Below, piece after piece: positions 1 to 18,540 of a stretch of 64,000 bases of DNA. Location of the stretch: assembly GCA_003220685.1 (NCBI GenBank), contig QHTE01000044.1, forward strand, positions 62,001 to 126,000. Reading direction: 5' to 3'. A model generated the notes under the pieces. It did not search any database, was not told the origin of the DNA, and saw nothing but the letters and a program-made list of their open reading frames with translations. The position numbers and the translations under genes are program-made. The stretch comes from Candidatus Rokuibacteriota bacterium (lineage in GTDB: Bacteria > Methylomirabilota > Methylomirabilia > Rokubacteriales > CSP1-6). Within the stretch, counting starts at the first letter, position 1; the number at the start of each line of letters is the position of its first letter.

Positions 1-809
1 ATGAAGCGAGCGCCGATCAGACGGACCGCCAGGCTCGACAGCATGCCGAGCACGCCGATCGTGAGCATGCCGACGACGATCTGCGGGTACTTCACGATGC
101 CGTAGGCGACCCACGTGAAGTACCCGACCCCGAACTGCCCGGAGATCATCTCGGCCGAGATCAGACAGATCCACGAGACTCCCATGCCCACCGAGAGCCC
201 GGTGACGATCGACGGCAGCGCGCCGGGAAGGACAACCTCGCGGAAGATGGCGGCGCGCCGCGCGCCCAGGCTCGTCGCCGCGCGCACGAGCTGGCGGTCG
301 ATCCCCTCGACGCCGTGGATCGTGTTGAGCACGATCGGGAAGAACGCGCCGAGCGTGGTGATGAACACGATGCTCGACCGCTCGGTGGGCCAGAGCATGA
401 TGCTGATCGGCACCCACGCCACCGCCGGGATCGGCCGGAACAGCTCGATCGGCGGGAACAAGGTGTCCTCGGCGACGGCGAACCACCCGATGGCGAGGCC
501 CAGCCCGACGCCGAGCACGGTGGCGATGGCGAAGCCGAGCCAGATGCGCTCGAGACTCGCGACGATGTGGACGTAGAAGCTTCGATTGCTGAACAGCTCG
601 ATCGCCTCGGCGAGGACCTCGCCCGGCGAGGGGATGTTCTGGAAGCGCACGTAGAGATCGAGGCCCCACAGGGTCGCAACGTGCCACGCGAGCAGGAACA
701 ACCCGATGGACAGCGCGCGGAGGGCCGGGCGCCGCCAGCTCGTCAGTCGCAGCGGGGCGGCGGCGGTCGCCCGCGCGGCCGGCGCGCGGACGAGCGGCGC
801 GGTCGCCAT
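1..809 (-). CDS. NitT/TauT-type ABC transporter permease (3' end beyond window)
   Basis: Inner-membrane permease subunit of a nitrate/sulfonate/taurine-type (SsuC/TauC) importer. Reading the minus strand from ATG at 809 gives 269 codons with no stop before the window edge, so the C-terminus is missing. A hydrophobic segment at about residues 31-50 is followed by further membrane segments. The cytoplasmic EAA loop, which contacts the ATPase, is visible as RAATSLGARRAAIFREVVLPG. The start directly abuts the TAG stop of the upstream binding-protein gene, so the two are cotranscribed. The ATPase is expected beyond the left edge. The substrate cannot be told from the sequence. Confidence 0.88.
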   Translation of the reverse strand, partial: MATAPLVRAPAARATAAAPLRLTSWRRPALRALSIGLFLLAWHVATLWGLDLYVRFQNIPSPGEVLAEAIELFSNRSFYVHIVASLERIWLGFAIATVLGVGLGLAIGWFAVAEDTLFPPIELFRPIPAVAWVPISIMLWPTERSSIVFITTLGAFFPIVLNTIHGVEGIDRQLVRAATSLGARRAAIFREVVLPGALPSIVTGLSVGMGVSWICLISAEMISGQFGVGYFTWVAYGIVKYPQIVVGMLTIGVLGMLSSLAVRLIGARF

Positions 810-12267: not shown

Positions 12268-13164
12268 TCAGACCTGGCCGTCCCAGGACGGGCCGGCGAC
12301 CTCGCCCCAGCGCGCGCGGATCCGCTCGAACTCGGCCGTCGGGAGCGCGCCGGCCTGGAGCAGCGCCGCGTTCTGCTGCCAGCGCTCCGGCTTGGTGGTG
12401 CCGACGATCGCGGTGTGCACGCCCGGCACGCGCAAGGTGAAGCGCAGCGCCGTGCCCACGGCCGCGTCGGGCGCCGCCTTCAGGAACGGATAGTCGAGCT
12501 TCCGCAGGCGCGACCAGTAGGTCTGGTAGTACGGCTCGGACGGCTTCTTCGCGTAGCTCCAGGCGACGTTGGCCAGCGGGCGCTTCGCGATCACGCCCAT
12601 GTTTCGGGCGCTCGCCAGCGGCAGGCTGCGGTCGACCGCGTCCTGATCCGCGATGTTGATCGACGTCTGCAGGGTATCGAAGCGTCCGCATTCGACGGCG
12701 TAGCGCGCGGCGTCGCCGTCGCCACTGTAGCCGATGTAGCGCGTCCAGCCGCGCTCGCGCGCGCGCTCCAGCGCCTCGATGGCCTCGCCCTTCCGGAGCT
12801 CGCCGAGCGAGCAGCTGTGAAGCTGGATGAGGTCGACGTAGTCGGTCGCGAGGCGGCGCAGGCTGCGCTCGATGCTGGCCAGGAGGGGCGCGCGCCGCCA
12901 GTCGGCGCTCGACCAACCGCCGGCGTGCCCGCACTTCGTGAACAGCGCGACCTCCCGCCGGCGGGCCCCGAGCGCCTTGCCGATCAGGCTCTCGCTGTCG
13001 TCGTAGCACTCCGCCGTGTCGAGCACGTTCAACCCGGCGTCGAGGGCGCTCCCGAGCAGCCGCGCGACCGTGCGCGCGCTCACGCGCTCGTAGCCGATCT
13101 CGGAGCCGCCGAAGCCGAGCACGCTCGCCACGATGTCGGTCCGGCCGAGCTGGCGCCGCTCCAC
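12268..13164 (-). CDS. aldo/keto reductase
   Basis: NADP-dependent oxidoreductase of 298 aa. The AKR catalytic tetrad is visible: Asp and Tyr in LDTAECYDD, Lys in ALFTKCGHAG and His in LIQLHSCS. A C-terminal cofactor-binding segment (VHTAIVGTTKPER) is present. The start is GTG 13164 with a weak ribosome site. It is divergent from the selenoprotein candidate at 13338, with a GC-rich repeat between them. The physiological carbonyl substrate cannot be inferred. Confidence 0.9.
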   Translation of the reverse strand: MERRQLGRTDIVASVLGFGGSEIGYERVSARTVARLLGSALDAGLNVLDTAECYDDSESLIGKALGARRREVALFTKCGHAGGWSSADWRRAPLLASIERSLRRLATDYVDLIQLHSCSLGELRKGEAIEALERARERGWTRYIGYSGDGDAARYAVECGRFDTLQTSINIADQDAVDRSLPLASARNMGVIAKRPLANVAWSYAKKPSEPYYQTYWSRLRKLDYPFLKAAPDAAVGTALRFTLRVPGVHTAIVGTTKPERWQQNAALLQAGALPTAEFERIRARWGEVAGPSWDGQV

Positions 13165-13200
13165 GATCTAGAGTCGCGTCTGGGTCTGCATCCGGGCTCC

Positions 13201-13240
13201 GGCCGGCGGGGCCCCAGCCCCGAGACGGCCTGTCGCGCGC
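13201..13240 (+). repeat. GC-rich hairpin repeat, copy 1 (degenerate)
   Basis: Begins GGCCGGCGGGGCCCCAGCCC. Outer GGCCG/CGGCC and inner GCGGGGC/GCCCCGA arms form a hairpin with loop CCCA. One inner pair is lost by C-to-A relative to the other copies. It lies between divergent genes at 13164 (minus) and 13338 (plus). Confidence 0.75.
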
Positions 13241-13337
13241 ACGACCGGAGGCGTCATGGACCGTCACGGTACCATAGCCCTGTCGCGAGGGTGACGCGCG
13301 CTCGAGAAACCGCACTCGAATCACCAGGAGGACGCCC

Positions 13338-13865
13338 ATGACGAGGATCAGCGAAGTCGAACATCCCGGACTGGCGCTCCGCGCCTTCTATCGGATCGGG
13401 CGGGCGATCTACGGCCGGGTGCCGACGCCGGAGCGGCTCATGGCCCACCGCGTGCCGCTCATGATGGGGCTCGGCGGCCTCTACGCCGCGCTCGAATGGT
13501 TCGGCCGAATCGAGTCGACCCTGCGTGCGCTCCTCAACGTGCAGGTCGCGGCGCTGTACGGCAGCGCCTATTGAATGGACATCCGCCGCGCCGTCGGCGC
13601 GAGGGCGGGGATCCCGACCGAGAAGCTCGACGACCTGCCGCGCTATCGAGAGAGCGATCGGTTCACGGCGCGAGAGCAAGCCGCGCTCGAATATGCCGAG
13701 CGCATCACGCGCGCCGACCTGGACGTGACCGACGCGTGCATGGCTCGGGTCCGGGAACACTTCTCGGAAGCCGAGGTCGTCGAGCTGACCTTCATCGTGG
13801 GCTTTCAGACCTTCGCCAGCAAGTTCGCCAAGGCTTTCAACCTCGCCCCGCAGGGGTACGCGTAG
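13338..13865 (+). CDS. carboxymuconolactone decarboxylase/AhpD-like protein, probable selenoprotein (in-frame TGA at 13572)
   Basis: Two adjacent frames (78 and 96 codons) are in phase and separated only by TGA 13572-13574. Joined, they give 175 residues, normal for CMD/AhpD-like disulfide reductases. The TGA sits where the family has the second Cys of its CxxC redox motif (LYGSAY-TGA-MDIRRA), and the first Cys is Ser. Downstream sequence is intact family sequence (YRESDRFTAREQAALEYAERIT). A six-pair hairpin follows at 13587-13601. AGGAGG precedes ATG 13338. Reading TGA as selenocysteine explains all of this; a nonsense mutation in a recent pseudogene is the alternative. No sel genes lie in the window. 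Confidence 0.72.
13587..13601 (+). promoter_or_regulatory. candidate bacterial SECIS hairpin
   Basis: CGCGCC-GTC-GGCGCG, a perfect six-pair stem whose three-base loop starts with G. The loop lies 19-21 nt after the in-frame TGA, within the range known for bacterial SECIS elements. Such stems are common by chance in GC-rich DNA. Confidence 0.45.
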
Positions 13866-13941
13866 CGGTGAGCCGCGGCGCTGCGGCCCGGAGCGTGCGC
13901 TCCGGGTCGCGGCGCGCCGGCCGAGCGAGGAGGGCGGCGCG

Positions 13942-14844
13942 CTAGGGGCGCGCGATGCAGTACGACGGCACCCAGCTCACGCCGAGGACGTCCGGGCCGA
14001 TCGTGCCGTAGTCGAACGCCACCGCGTCCTGCCGCATCTGCCGCGTGTCGAACAGGAGCGGCGCCTCCGGGATCCCGCCGAAGAACGCCCGGAACATCGG
14101 CCGCACCATCAGCCGGGCCGCGCGCAGCCCGAGCGGCCCCATGAAGTTGCGCCGCTCCCCGACGTGCGAGAGCTCGTCGGTCATGATCGCGCGCAGGAGC
14201 TCGCGGATCCGGTCCCGGACGTCGGGTTCGTCGCCGACGATGTCGTCGAGCATCGCGTCGAGCCGCAGGTAAACGGTCAGGCCCATCAGCTCGCTCACGA
14301 AGGCCGGCGGCGCCACCAGAGGGCCGGGCAAGCGGGCGAACACGCCGTAGAGCCGCTTGGTCCGCCTCGGCAGCGGGCCCCACTCGACGCCCTCGAGGCC
14401 GAAGGTCCGGAACATCTCCTGGAAGAGGCGCATGTGACAGAACTCCTCCGCCAGGTGGTAGCGGCTGATCTTGTCGATCAGGTACTTCGCGCGGGCCAGC
14501 GTCGGCGTCGCGTCCCAGGCCGCCGAGATGCCGATCCACTCGTGACGCGCGAACTTGTAGAGAAAGGTCAAGAGGAGCGTCCGCCGATCGAGGCTCCGCG
14601 GATCGTCCCGCATCGTGAGGTAGTTGCGGTGGAACGCCTCGGCCACCGGCCGGCGCGTGCGGACCGGATTGGCCCGCAGGCGCGCGAGGCTCTTGCGCTT
14701 CTCCGACAGGTCCTTCGCGCCCTCGAGGATCTCGCCGTCGCGACCTTGCTGGTAGAGCCAGTAGCTCTCGAAGTTCGCCTCGCGCTCGCGCGCGGTGGCG
14801 GGCGAGAAGATCGACCGGCGCCCGGGTCGATGGACAGACGACAC
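13942..14844 (-). CDS. putative ferritin-like di-iron protein, function unknown
   Basis: Soluble protein of 300 aa with no signal peptide, not matched to a named family. Two helical metal motifs are visible, LAEEFCHMRLF and MTDELSHVGERR, each Glu-x-x-His as in ferritin-like di-iron carboxylate proteins. Between them lie hydrophobic helices (PPAFVSELMGLTVYLRL). GTG 14844 lies 15 bases after the GlcG-like gene on the same strand, so they are probably cotranscribed. It could be an oxygenase or an oxidant-handling protein; the di-iron assignment rests on the motifs only. Confidence 0.68.
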   Translation of the reverse strand: MSSVHRPGRRSIFSPATAREREANFESYWLYQQGRDGEILEGAKDLSEKRKSLARLRANPVRTRRPVAEAFHRNYLTMRDDPRSLDRRTLLLTFLYKFARHEWIGISAAWDATPTLARAKYLIDKISRYHLAEEFCHMRLFQEMFRTFGLEGVEWGPLPRRTKRLYGVFARLPGPLVAPPAFVSELMGLTVYLRLDAMLDDIVGDEPDVRDRIRELLRAIMTDELSHVGERRNFMGPLGLRAARLMVRPMFRAFFGGIPEAPLLFDTRQMRQDAVAFDYGTIGPDVLGVSWVPSYCIARP

Positions 14845-14859
14845 GCCGGCTACGGATCC

Positions 14860-15258
14860 TTACGCGAGGGCGGCCGCGCCGGCGTTGGCGATCTGCTCGT
14901 CCTCGTGCGACTGCACTCCGGACACGCCGATGGCGCCGACGCACTCGTTCTGGTACGTGACGGGCACGCCGCCCTGGAGCGGCAGGATGCCCGGGAACTT
15001 CATGAACGCGGGGCGCTCCTTGATGCGGTCCTCCCAGAACTTCGAGGCACGCCGCGTGCGGGCCGCGGTGACCGCCTTCTCTATCGCGACCTCGGCGGTC
15101 ACGGGCCCGGCCCCGTCGAGCCGCTCGAGATAGAGCAAGGAGCCGGCGTCGTCCACCACGGCGATGGAAACGCTCCACTTGTTCTTGGTCGCTTCGCTCT
15201 TACAGGCGGCGACCATCTTCTGGACATCAGCCGCGGTGAGTGTCGGCCGGTTGCGCAT
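14860..15258 (-). CDS. GlcG/HbpS family protein (DUF336)
   Basis: Small protein of 132 aa with the family signature AAVDV-like opening (LTAADVQKMVAACKSEA), the central AVVDDAGSLLYLERLDGA and the C-terminal PVTYQNECVGAIGVSG. Members bind haem or cobalamin-like ligands or accompany glycolate and diol catabolism. ATG 15258 has GAGGAG upstream. It is divergent from the amidohydrolase at 15404 with a shared operator/promoter region, and is followed by the di-iron candidate. The exact role is unknown. Confidence 0.85.
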   Translation of the reverse strand: MRNRPTLTAADVQKMVAACKSEATKNKWSVSIAVVDDAGSLLYLERLDGAGPVTAEVAIEKAVTAARTRRASKFWEDRIKERPAFMKFPGILPLQGGVPVTYQNECVGAIGVSGVQSHEDEQIANAGAAALA

Positions 15259-15311
15259 GGCGAGCTCCTCCGATCAAGGGTGAAGCGGACTTTAGTGCAG
15301 CGCCCGACTCG

Positions 15312-15339
15312 GTGTCAACGCCGGAGACGACGTTGACAC
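15312..15339. promoter_or_regulatory. inverted repeat carrying back-to-back -35 elements
   Basis: GTGTCAACG and CGTTGACAC are perfect nine-base arms separated by 10 bases. Each arm contains TTGACA in the outward direction, so the repeat sits on the -35 sites of both divergent genes and is a good candidate operator. Confidence 0.6.
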
Positions 15340-15361
15340 GCCCGACGCCGCCGCCTAGCAT
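15333..15361 (+). promoter_or_regulatory. sigma-70-type promoter for the amidohydrolase
   Basis: TTGACA at 15333-15338, a 17-base spacer and TAGCAT at 15356-15361. The expected start near 15368 gives a 36-base leader before ATG 15404. A weaker counterpart on the minus strand (TTGACA 15318-15313, TAAAGT 15294-15289, 18-base spacer) would serve the GlcG-like gene. Confidence 0.62.
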
Positions 15362-15403
15362 GCGCTGGCGAGCGCCGATCCAAATTCACCAGGAGTCACG
15401 ACG

Positions 15404-16852
15404 ATGCGAACACTGATCCAGGGCGGATGGGTCGTCGGCTTCGACGGCCGCGGCCACGAGCTGATTCCGGACGGGTGCGTCGTGTTCGAGGACGACCGCG
15501 TCGTCCACGTCGGTACGCGATTCGACGGACCGGTCGATCGCCGCGTGGACGCCGCCGGCAAGCTCGTGTCGCCCGGCTTGATCAACTGTCACCTGCACGC
15601 CGCCACCAACGCCGGGCAGGCGGTCTTCCTCGACGGCCTCAAGGCCGACTACTTCGCGAGCAACTTCGTCGGCTACGTCGCGCCGCGCCGGGGCGCCGCC
15701 GTGCCCCGTGCGGGCGACCGCGCGGACGTGGCCGGAACGTACGGCCTCTGGTCGGCGCTTCGCGCCGGCGCCACGACGATCATGGACGTCGGCACGATGC
15801 CGGGCGGCCCGGCGGCATTCACCAAGATCGCCGGCGAGCTGGGCGTGCGCGCCTACGTTGGCCCGGCGTTCCGCTCGGCGAGCTACGCCTTCGACGGAAG
15901 CCGCATCGTGTGGGAATGGGACGAGCCTGCCGGCGTCGCCGGGCTCGAGCGCGCCGTCGCCTACATCAAGGCGCACGACGGCGACTACAACGGACGGATC
16001 AGGGCGATGCTCTACCCCGGTCAGCTCGACACCTGCACGCCCGATCTCCTGAAGCAGGCTCGACGCTGGGCGGACGATCTGGGCGTTCCGATGCAGCTTC
16101 ACGCCGCGATGAACCAGCGCGAATTCCACCACATCCTCGAGCAGCACGGCCAGACGCCGGTTCAGCTCCTCCACTCGATCGGCTTCCTGAAGCCGCGCAC
16201 CGGCCTCGGCCACTGCGTGTTTCACAACGATCACTCCTGGTGCCACTACCCGTACGCCGACGACTTGAAGCTTTTGGCCGACAGCGGCGTGACGGTGGTG
16301 CACGCGCCGTACAAGTACGCCAAGATGGGCGTCAAGTTCGAATCGTTCGAGCGCTATCGCGCGATCGGGATCAACATTGCGCTCGGCACCGACACCTACC
16401 CGCAAGATCTCGTCCACGAGATGCGCTGGGCCGCCTTGATGTGCCGCATGGCCGACGGAAGCTTCCGCGTGGGCCGGCCGCGGGACGTCTTCGACGCCGC
16501 CACGCTCGGCGGCGCGCGCCATCTCGGTCGCGACGATCTCGGGCGGCTGGCGCCGGGCGCCAAGGCCGACATCATCGTCGTCGACCTGCGCCACCTGCAC
16601 TACGGCGCCGTACACGATCCGATCAAGGCGCTGGTCGACTGCGGCAGCGGGCGCGACGTCGAGACCGTCATCGTCGACGGTCAGGTGCTGGTGGAAGACG
16701 GGCGGGCCGTTCGCGTCGACGAGCAGGCTCTACTGCGGGACGTCCAGGCCGAGGGCGAGCGGCTCTGGAAGGCGATCCCGCAGTGGCACTGGACCGCCAG
16801 GCCGCTCGACGAGATCGTGCCGCCGAGCTATCCGGTGCGCGGCGGGCACTGA
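15404..16852 (+). CDS. amidohydrolase (TrzA/AtzB/cytosine-deaminase-like)
   Basis: Cytoplasmic metal-dependent hydrolase of 482 aa with a composite-sandwich plus TIM-barrel fold. Metal ligands are in LINCHLHAATN (HxH), MQLHAAMN, GHCVFHNDH and LGTDTYP. A C-terminal beta-sandwich follows (GAKADIIVVDLR; VETVIVDGQVLVEDG). Relatives deaminate or dechlorinate N-heterocycles or guanidines. CAGGAG precedes ATG 15404. It has its own promoter overlapping an inverted repeat. The substrate cannot be fixed from sequence. Confidence 0.9.
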   Translation: MRTLIQGGWVVGFDGRGHELIPDGCVVFEDDRVVHVGTRFDGPVDRRVDAAGKLVSPGLINCHLHAATNAGQAVFLDGLKADYFASNFVGYVAPRRGAAVPRAGDRADVAGTYGLWSALRAGATTIMDVGTMPGGPAAFTKIAGELGVRAYVGPAFRSASYAFDGSRIVWEWDEPAGVAGLERAVAYIKAHDGDYNGRIRAMLYPGQLDTCTPDLLKQARRWADDLGVPMQLHAAMNQREFHHILEQHGQTPVQLLHSIGFLKPRTGLGHCVFHNDHSWCHYPYADDLKLLADSGVTVVHAPYKYAKMGVKFESFERYRAIGINIALGTDTYPQDLVHEMRWAALMCRMADGSFRVGRPRDVFDAATLGGARHLGRDDLGRLAPGAKADIIVVDLRHLHYGAVHDPIKALVDCGSGRDVETVIVDGQVLVEDGRAVRVDEQALLRDVQAEGERLWKAIPQWHWTARPLDEIVPPSYPVRGGH

Positions 16853-16871
16853 CGTCAACACGGCTGAGCGA

Positions 16872-17855
16872 TCACGGTTTCCGCGCTGCCTCGGGAAGAC
16901 CGGGTAGGGCCAGATCAGCTCCCTGGAAGCCGTCCCGGACCGCGGGATGCCACGCCTCCGCCCACGCTCGCAGCTTCTCGACGTAGGCGATTTTCTCCGG
17001 GTACTGGTAGATGTAGTTGCGGTTCCAGTCGCTTTCTTCCCAGATCGCCGGCTTCGACGTGATCCCGTCCGTCTCCGGGTTGAAGTAGTAGACGGCGTGC
17101 AGGAAGCTCTGCTTGTCGGCCAGCCGGAAGAACGCCGAGAGCAGCACGGGCGGGTACTTGACGCCGCGAAGCTCGAGGTCGCCGATCGCCGCACGAATGA
17201 TCGGCGGGGTGTCGCGCTCGGCGGAGGGCGTCGAGAGGTTGTGGTTGATCGTCCAGCAGTCCTGCCGGCCGAACTCCTCGTTGGTGATCGTCTTCACGTA
17301 GAGCAAGGCCGTCCGCGCGCACTGCGCCGACTGGCGGAACCCCGTGGCCGATGCGCCCACCTGCGTGCTGGCTTGGACGAGCACCGCCCGGCTCAGCTTG
17401 TCCCGGCGCACCTGGGCGAGGAACAGTGACTCGACGCCGCCCGGGTCGGGGGCCGGAAAATACGCGACGACGATCCACTGGCCGGGTGGCAAAGGCACGC
17501 TCTTGCCCTGAGCCGCCACGTCCCCCGTGACCGTCTTGCCCATGAGCGTCGCGGCGGGATCCGTGTCCGCTCGCGGCGCGATCGAGGCATTCGGACGCGA
17601 AGGCGCGATGACCTGACCGCCGCTGCCCGCGGCGGAAGCCGCGGCCGCAACGGGACGCTGACCGATTGCCACGGTCTGCGACGCGGGCGCGGTGAAGCGG
17701 CTCTGCGCCACGGAAGGCGGCAGCGCAGCCCCGGGCGGCTTGCCGCTCGGCTGCAGCGACAGGGCGGCGACGAGCAACAGGGACAGCCCGGTCGCGAGAA
17801 CGAGGACGCCCTTGAACACGGGCGAGCGACGCCAGAGCGCGCCGAAATGGCTCAT
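16872..17855 (-). CDS. membrane-anchored hypothetical protein
   Basis: Unrecognised protein of 327 aa. A single hydrophobic helix at about 15-36 (VLVLATGLSLLLVAALSL) is followed by an Ala/Pro-rich linker (about 37-110) and a folded C-terminal region rich in aromatic residues (WTINHNL; VYYFNPETDG; IYQYPEKIAYVEKLRAW). It is probably anchored in the inner membrane with the domain outside. It lies 31 bases after a truncated Clp ATPase gene on the same strand, so the two may once have formed an operon. Function unknown. Confidence 0.72.
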   Translation of the reverse strand: MSHFGALWRRSPVFKGVLVLATGLSLLLVAALSLQPSGKPPGAALPPSVAQSRFTAPASQTVAIGQRPVAAAASAAGSGGQVIAPSRPNASIAPRADTDPAATLMGKTVTGDVAAQGKSVPLPPGQWIVVAYFPAPDPGGVESLFLAQVRRDKLSRAVLVQASTQVGASATGFRQSAQCARTALLYVKTITNEEFGRQDCWTINHNLSTPSAERDTPPIIRAAIGDLELRGVKYPPVLLSAFFRLADKQSFLHAVYYFNPETDGITSKPAIWEESDWNRNYIYQYPEKIAYVEKLRAWAEAWHPAVRDGFQGADLALPGLPEAARKP

Positions 17856-17886
17856 CGCGGTCTCGCCGGCGCCGCGGCCGCGGCGC

Positions 17887-18540
17887 TCACGTGGCCGGCT
17901 CCGCGGCGATCGCGTCGCCGCGCACGATCAGCCGCACCTTGGTGAGCTTGCGCTGGCGGGCCGCGATCAGAGAATCGGCGACGGTGTCCTCGATCGCGCG
18001 CACCAGGTCGCGAGACGACCCGACCGAACCGAGCTTCTGCTGCCGCCGCACCAGCTCGTGGAGCACCGCGACGTCGATACCGCCCTCGGCGATCTCGAGC
18101 CCGTAGCCGCGGATCATCTCCTCGATCTCCAGCGCGCCGACCCGCGCGATGTCGAGCCCCTCGAGCGGCCGGAACACGAAGATGCGGTCGATGCGGCTCA
18201 GCACCTCGGGCGCGAACCCCGCCTCGCGCAGCGCCTGCACCGAGGCCCGGCGCAGCTCCTCGGGCCGACTCGCGTAGCGGCCCGACAGCTCGCTCAAGGT
18301 GTCGGTCGCGGCGTTCGTCGTGAGCACGAAGATGGCGCCGGTGGTGGAGATCTGGCGGCCGTCGGAGGCCTCCGTCACGAAGCCGTCGTTCCACGCGGTC
18401 AGGAAGTTCTTGTGGACCTCCGGGTGCGCCTTCTCGAACTCGTCGAGCAGGACCACCGTGTCCGGCATGTCTCTGAGGACCGCCGTGAGCTTGCCGTAGG
18501 TATCGGAGCCTACGTAGCCCTTCGAGTGGGTCGGAGGGGA
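17887..18540 (-). pseudogene. 3' remnant of a Clp-type AAA+ ATPase
   Basis: The frame holds the second AAA module of ClpA/ClpB from the GYVGSDTYGKLTAVL pore-loop region through Walker B (VVLLDEFEKAHPEV), sensor 1 (FVLTTNAAT), the arginine-finger region (EVLSRIDRIFVF) and the small C-terminal domain. Everything upstream is missing: no Walker A and no first AAA domain. An in-frame stop lies at about 18646. ATG 18468 could initiate only a 193-residue piece that cannot bind ATP. It looks like a deletion remnant. Confidence 0.68.

Follow-up and report, generated by a model that had tools for sequence, protein, structure and literature searches.

A predicted pair of separate divergent sigma-70-type promoters between glcG-like and amidohydrolase genes of a Rokuibacteriota genome

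The intergenic region between a GlcG-like/di-iron gene unit and an amidohydrolase gene of a Candidatus Rokuibacteriota bacterium contains an inverted repeat with TTGACA on each strand. This raises the question of whether the repeat is an operator through which one regulator could control both units, as the first-pass annotation had proposed, or whether it simply reflects two promoters placed back to back. The locus was analyzed within a window of 64,000 nucleotides (the whole stretch of DNA under study) and in related genomes. The region very probably carries two separate promoters of the housekeeping sigma-70 (RpoD) type, arranged back to back and genetically independent of one another. The features relevant to this reading are as follows.

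13942-14844, minus strand: putative ferritin-like di-iron protein, 300 aa, starting 15 bp past the glcG stop (invariant residues)
14860-15258, minus strand: GlcG/HbpS-like gene, 132 aa, first of the leftward unit (Pfam PF03928, HbpS-like, 122 bits)
15289-15294, minus strand: -10 hexamer TAAAGT of the predicted glcG-side promoter (sequence read, consensus scan); TACAGT in relative G003
15312-15339, both strands: inverted repeat of 9 + 10 + 9 bp, made up of both -35 boxes plus flanking bases (repeat search)
15313-15318, minus strand: -35 hexamer TTGACA of the predicted glcG-side promoter, 18-bp spacer (sequence read, consensus scan)
15333-15338, plus strand: -35 hexamer TTGACA of the predicted amidohydrolase promoter, 17-bp spacer (sequence read, consensus scan, orthologues)
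15347-15355, plus strand: 3' half of the amidohydrolase promoter spacer, beside the -10 hexamer; consensus of the relatives GGCGCCGCC, window GCCGCCGCC; possible operator or promoter-strength element
15356-15361, plus strand: -10 hexamer TAGCAT of the predicted amidohydrolase promoter (sequence read, scan, orthologues)
15404-16852, plus strand: amidohydrolase, 482 aa, chlorohydrolase-type (Pfam PF01979; NCBIfam PRK06151, 468.8 bits against a cut-off of 416)

The promoter pair and its neighbouring genes

When the sequence was read directly, positions 15289-15361 were found to hold two predicted promoters pointing outward on opposite strands, TTGACA-17-TAGCAT (plus) and TTGACA-18-TAAAGT (minus), exactly as originally annotated. 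A consensus promoter scan of positions 13000-18000 returned just these two sites, both with spacers of 16-18 bp, compared with a mean of 0.2 in shuffled sequence, which places the promoters beyond chance. Each of them fits the consensus at 10 of 12 positions, with both -10 boxes being non-ideal (4 of 6 consensus bases each). The -35 boxes are separated by 14 bp and the two -10 boxes by 61 bp. Both promoters lie 5' of a gene start in the correct direction, and both genes have a ribosome-binding site: the glcG ATG at 15258 is preceded by GGAGGAG, and the amidohydrolase ATG at 15404 by AGGAG. Scan statistics, placement and the conservation in relatives described below all argue for two real divergent promoters. 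In the genome as a whole, the pattern TTGACA-16..18-TANNNT occurs 93 times, compared to 3 occurrences of a reversed control pattern, which identifies it as a general promoter class of this genome.

We infer that a housekeeping sigma factor would serve both promoters and that both are active, with RNA polymerase recognising TTGACA on either strand. With starts placed 7 bp past each -10 box, rightward transcription would begin at ~15368 and enter the amidohydrolase gene, and leftward transcription would begin at ~15282 and cover glcG and the putative di-iron gene, the two predicted starts being ~86 bp apart. With 14 bp between the -35 boxes, two polymerases would probably get in each other's way just upstream, and some competition may therefore occur. 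Such a promoter pair is ordinary, though useful as a mapped pair. It provides a well-supported predicted promoter pair in the phylum Rokuibacteriota; a literature search found neither promoter mapping for this phylum nor transcript data for the host organism.

The first-pass labels of the flanking genes were largely upheld. The GlcG-like assignment is confirmed by the Pfam HbpS-like match and the amidohydrolase assignment by PF01979 and by PRK06151, the latter above its cut-off. The ferritin-like di-iron identity of the 300-aa protein is plausible: the residues H101-E102, E133-E134-x-x-H137 and D223-E224-x-x-H227 (HE, EExxH and DExxH) are invariant in 6 aligned homologues. Against this label, no Pfam family scored above cut-off, and the structure predicted from the 6-sequence alignment is a poor model (mean pLDDT of 55), of insufficient quality for fold searching. 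Comparison with solved structures gave only an insignificant match.

Two side observations concern the downstream end of the leftward unit. A GC-rich hairpin (13879-13916) located between the convergent ends of the di-iron gene and a YciW-like gene may be a terminator that lacks a T run; it also gave the sole Rfam match in 13000-17000, a microRNA model far below threshold. The YciW/carboxymuconolactone-decarboxylase-like frame (13338-13862, plus strand) contains an in-frame TGA just before an ATG at 13575 (...YGSAY-TGA-MDIRR...), at the position of the redox cysteine of such proteins. The match to the NCBIfam model 'YciW-related (seleno)protein' scores 71 bits without readthrough of this TGA and 104 bits with it, the latter still below the cut-off of 310. 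An in-frame TGA was found by a short-pattern scan in 7 of 8 related loci, with no match in locus L121, and is a candidate selenocysteine codon.

Conservation of the two promoters in relatives

The locus was compared among 12 amidohydrolase orthologues of at least 78% identity, including that of the window (G000). TTGACA-17/18-TAGCAT is present 5' of the amidohydrolase gene in nine of them, with a spacer of 17 bp in G000, G002, G003, G004, G006, G007, G008 and G020, and of 18 bp in G005. As for the remaining three, G001 has no such promoter and its amidohydrolase gene closely follows an upstream gene, G009 carries CTGACA-17-TATCGT, and the upstream region in G015 gave no match in the promoter scan. 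Of the 9 records of named relatives, 8 are Rokuibacteriota MAGs and one carries the label Actinobacteria. A record beyond the 12, L118 (VAYX01000028.1), labelled Actinobacteria, encodes the amidohydrolase at 92% identity behind the 18-bp form of the same promoter, and is probably a misbinned Rokuibacteriota contig.

A glcG gene or its remnant adjoins the amidohydrolase gene in 5 of the 12 (G000, G003, G006, G007, G008); in this comparison G002 was represented by locus L121 and G004 by L122 (1.1 kb upstream only). The glcG-side promoter is complete in two of these five, G000 and G003, which are the two genomes with an intact glcG. In G007, glcG is split over two frames and its -35 and -10 boxes are 10 bp apart; in G006, a C-terminal glcG remnant is accompanied by ATGACA in place of the -35 box; and in G008, the 5' end of glcG is missing and the leftward promoter was not found. 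It should be noted that the glcG frameshifts could be MAG errors. The amidohydrolase promoter is kept in G005, with a codirectional carboxymuconolactone-type gene upstream and no glcG, and in G002, G004 and G020, with other upstream sequence showing no glcG match. No second TTGACA half was found beside the retained one in G002, G004 or G005, and in G020 a different divergent neighbour has its own TTGACA-17-TACTGT at a gap of 22 bp. In the three genomes with both boxes at the glcG-amidohydrolase locus, the gap between them is 14 (G000), 20 (G003) or 13 bp (G007). The two halves thus appear, vanish and shift separately, which argues for two independent promoters rather than one dimer site, each predicted promoter having been gained and lost independently in the relatives.

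The amidohydrolase promoter spacer is itself conserved. Its mean pairwise identity is 0.80 over 8 orthologues, rising to 0.92 in the last 9 columns (the same number of orthologues, from two genera), compared with 0.31-0.39 in the outer flanks, in an ungapped, promoter-anchored alignment in which flank values are near random by construction where lengths differ. Judged by this alignment, conservation of the spacer appears to exceed what neutrality would predict. Of 59 genomes (the window's included), 10 have the pattern TTGACA-N11..13-CCGCCTAGCAT, nine of them at the amidohydrolase gene and one elsewhere (G019). Both results would suit an operator located in this spacer alone, near GGCGCCGCC beside the -10 box, which would make the -35 repeat irrelevant. 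We consider this unlikely, since the window has a broken form of the palindrome core CGGCGCCG, which is intact in 5 of the 8 aligned orthologues, no regulon is seen across the 59 genomes beyond the one further match, and a strong promoter, or one tuned for strand opening, could yield equal conservation without any protein. If an operator exists at all, the 3' half of the spacer (GGCGCCGCC; degenerate in the window) would be a better place for it than the repeat, and an operator or tuned promoter in this spacer is the best remaining idea for regulation of the locus. It is also conceivable, if distinctly improbable, that an extended promoter, CGTTGACA...GGCGCCGCC-TAGCAT, is recognised by a regulator specific to the lineage or by a sigma-70 region of an unusual kind, and that the closeness of the -35 boxes allows competition for polymerase between the two units. 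Spacer sequence, and not length alone, would then set amidohydrolase expression across the genus.

Origin of the inverted repeat

The repeat consists of GTGTCAACG (15312-15320), 10 bp, and CGTTGACAC (15331-15339). Its 9-bp arms, each with a TTGACA, are perfect, as first described, and extend to 12 nt at 92% (11 of 12; 15312-15323 and 15328-15339) in the repeat search. Allowing up to 3 mismatches, the repeat occurs a single time in the window, compared to 0.01 expected by chance, and the only exact match to its 26-bp core (8 + 10 + 8) in the 6.09-Mb genome is the present locus. The TTGACA hexamer supplies 6 of the 9 bases of each arm, and arms of at least 9 bp were found in 4 of 45 distinct back-to-back TTGACA pairs, a sample made up of the loci retrieved by the searches. 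The repeat is no more than modestly longer than two back-to-back TTGACA boxes require. It is present because two good outward-facing -35 boxes mirror each other, and is mostly a by-product of both promoters using TTGACA.

The flanks of the boxes form a second aspect of the repeat. Wherever this locus has both boxes (G000, G003, G007), each TTGACA is preceded by CG. The amidohydrolase-side box has this CG in all nine promoter-bearing orthologues, compared with 2 of the 30 promoter-like sites that were read with flanks in the genome. A sign of extra constraint or common descent is thus visible in these flanks, and descent may explain those on the glcG side, the copies being closely related. A search of 59 genomes for the CG-flanked repeat found none elsewhere in the window's family, and two matches outside this locus, one in a different family of the same order and one in a different family of the same class.

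These data bear directly on the proposal that a single repressor or activator, bound as a dimer across both -35 boxes, governs both units. The repeat is unique, with perfect 9-bp arms, it has matching CG flanks in three genomes, and a local operator can be unique, as is the single ForZ site in Streptomyces according to the available part of its description (PMC12421854). However, the half-sites, 14, 20 or 13 bp apart, are not kept at a constant distance or helical phase, in G006 and G008 one half has decayed beside a preserved one, and the amidohydrolase half is kept in three further genomes in which a second half was not found. The recurrence of the repeat elsewhere in the genome, which had been suggested as a check, was likewise not observed: the core has no second exact copy, and the CG-flanked form is confined to this locus within the family, although a purely local regulator would not need further sites, whether at other genes or at a gene for a regulator. 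None of the examined gene products around the locus is a DNA-binding regulator. Joint control by one regulator through the repeat is therefore very unlikely, and was dropped as the leading reading because the gap varies and the halves are lost separately. A role of the repeat as an RNA or DNA structure (a terminator hairpin or cruciform), for which its 12-nt arms and short loop might speak, is extremely improbable. The repeat is located 5' of both predicted starts and so lies outside either predicted transcript, it is not followed by a T run, its gap is 20 bp in G003, and no Rfam family matches there; a hairpin or RNA element was rejected. The relatives can thus tell a true dimer operator from a repeat made free by two outward-facing -35 boxes, and two independent housekeeping promoters remain the preferred reading.

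Back-to-back TTGACA boxes are common in these genomes. The pattern TGTCAA-N0..30-TTGACA was found 187 times in 34 genomes (the window's included), compared with 12 matches for the reversed control, and 92 times in 20 genomes of the window's family (again including the window's). Pairs in facing order numbered 54 and 9 in the same two sets. Gaps of the family's back-to-back pairs range from 1 to 30 bp, with 14 bp in 5 of 85 among the matches listed (7 of the 92 pairs are outside this tally). A preferred -35 spacing was considered and set aside: gaps of 10 and 19 bp are the most frequent among the 85 listed pairs, but, by eye, these peaks consist mostly of two orthologous families. The window's genome has 10 such pairs, with gaps of 3 to 30 bp. 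By eye, five of them (L046, L001, L048, L050 and L054) have a -10-like box with A2 and T6 on both sides at a spacer of 15-19 bp, so not every back-to-back pair need be a promoter pair.

Two other pairs were observed in the course of this comparison. The back-to-back -35 pair TGTCAATATGTTGCGRTTGACA (L046, 1501-1522, and its kin L159, L160, L163 and L164) has retained the 10-bp gap and the bulk of its inner sequence across several genera, unlike the glcG-amidohydrolase pair, and has the appearance of a divergent regulatory site under true constraint. The pair of L049 (1501-1531) and its kin L153, L156 and L158 has a 19-bp gap in all four loci read, with a strongly conserved right flank and a less conserved left flank.

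Relation to known divergent promoters

A literature search on back-to-back divergent promoters with RNA polymerase and 35 hexamers returned no matching paper; one on overlapping divergent promoters with an inverted repeat, an operator and RNA polymerase returned two. The original paper on bidirectional promoters reportedly dates from 2021. In the available part of a later study (Warman et al. 2026, PMC12825309), such promoters are defined by a shared symmetric -10 element with starts ~10, 18 or 23 bp apart, and separate divergent promoters are excluded from the class. The present locus resembles them, as far as that part describes them, in that transcription would diverge from a short symmetric segment and polymerase competition would be possible. 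It differs in that they share one -10 element with starts ~10-23 bp apart, whereas the two predicted promoters here share no element, have their own -10 boxes and would start ~86 bp apart.

The ForZ system, in the portion of the source available (PMC12421854), offers another comparison. Both the ForZ site and the repeat described here are inverted repeats in a divergent promoter region and unique in their genomes. In the ForZ system, however, one of the two neighbours encodes the regulator, whose binding was measured, whereas the present locus is without a regulator neighbour and does not conserve its half-site distance.

The closest likeness is to separate divergent sigma-70 promoters of head-to-head genes, in which, as here, two complete -35/-10 sets serve their own genes and share no element. 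The predicted pair belongs to this type, and not to the shared -10 bidirectional type. Compared with the usual members, its -35 boxes are close (14 bp apart) and both have the full consensus TTGACA, which is what makes the inverted repeat visible.
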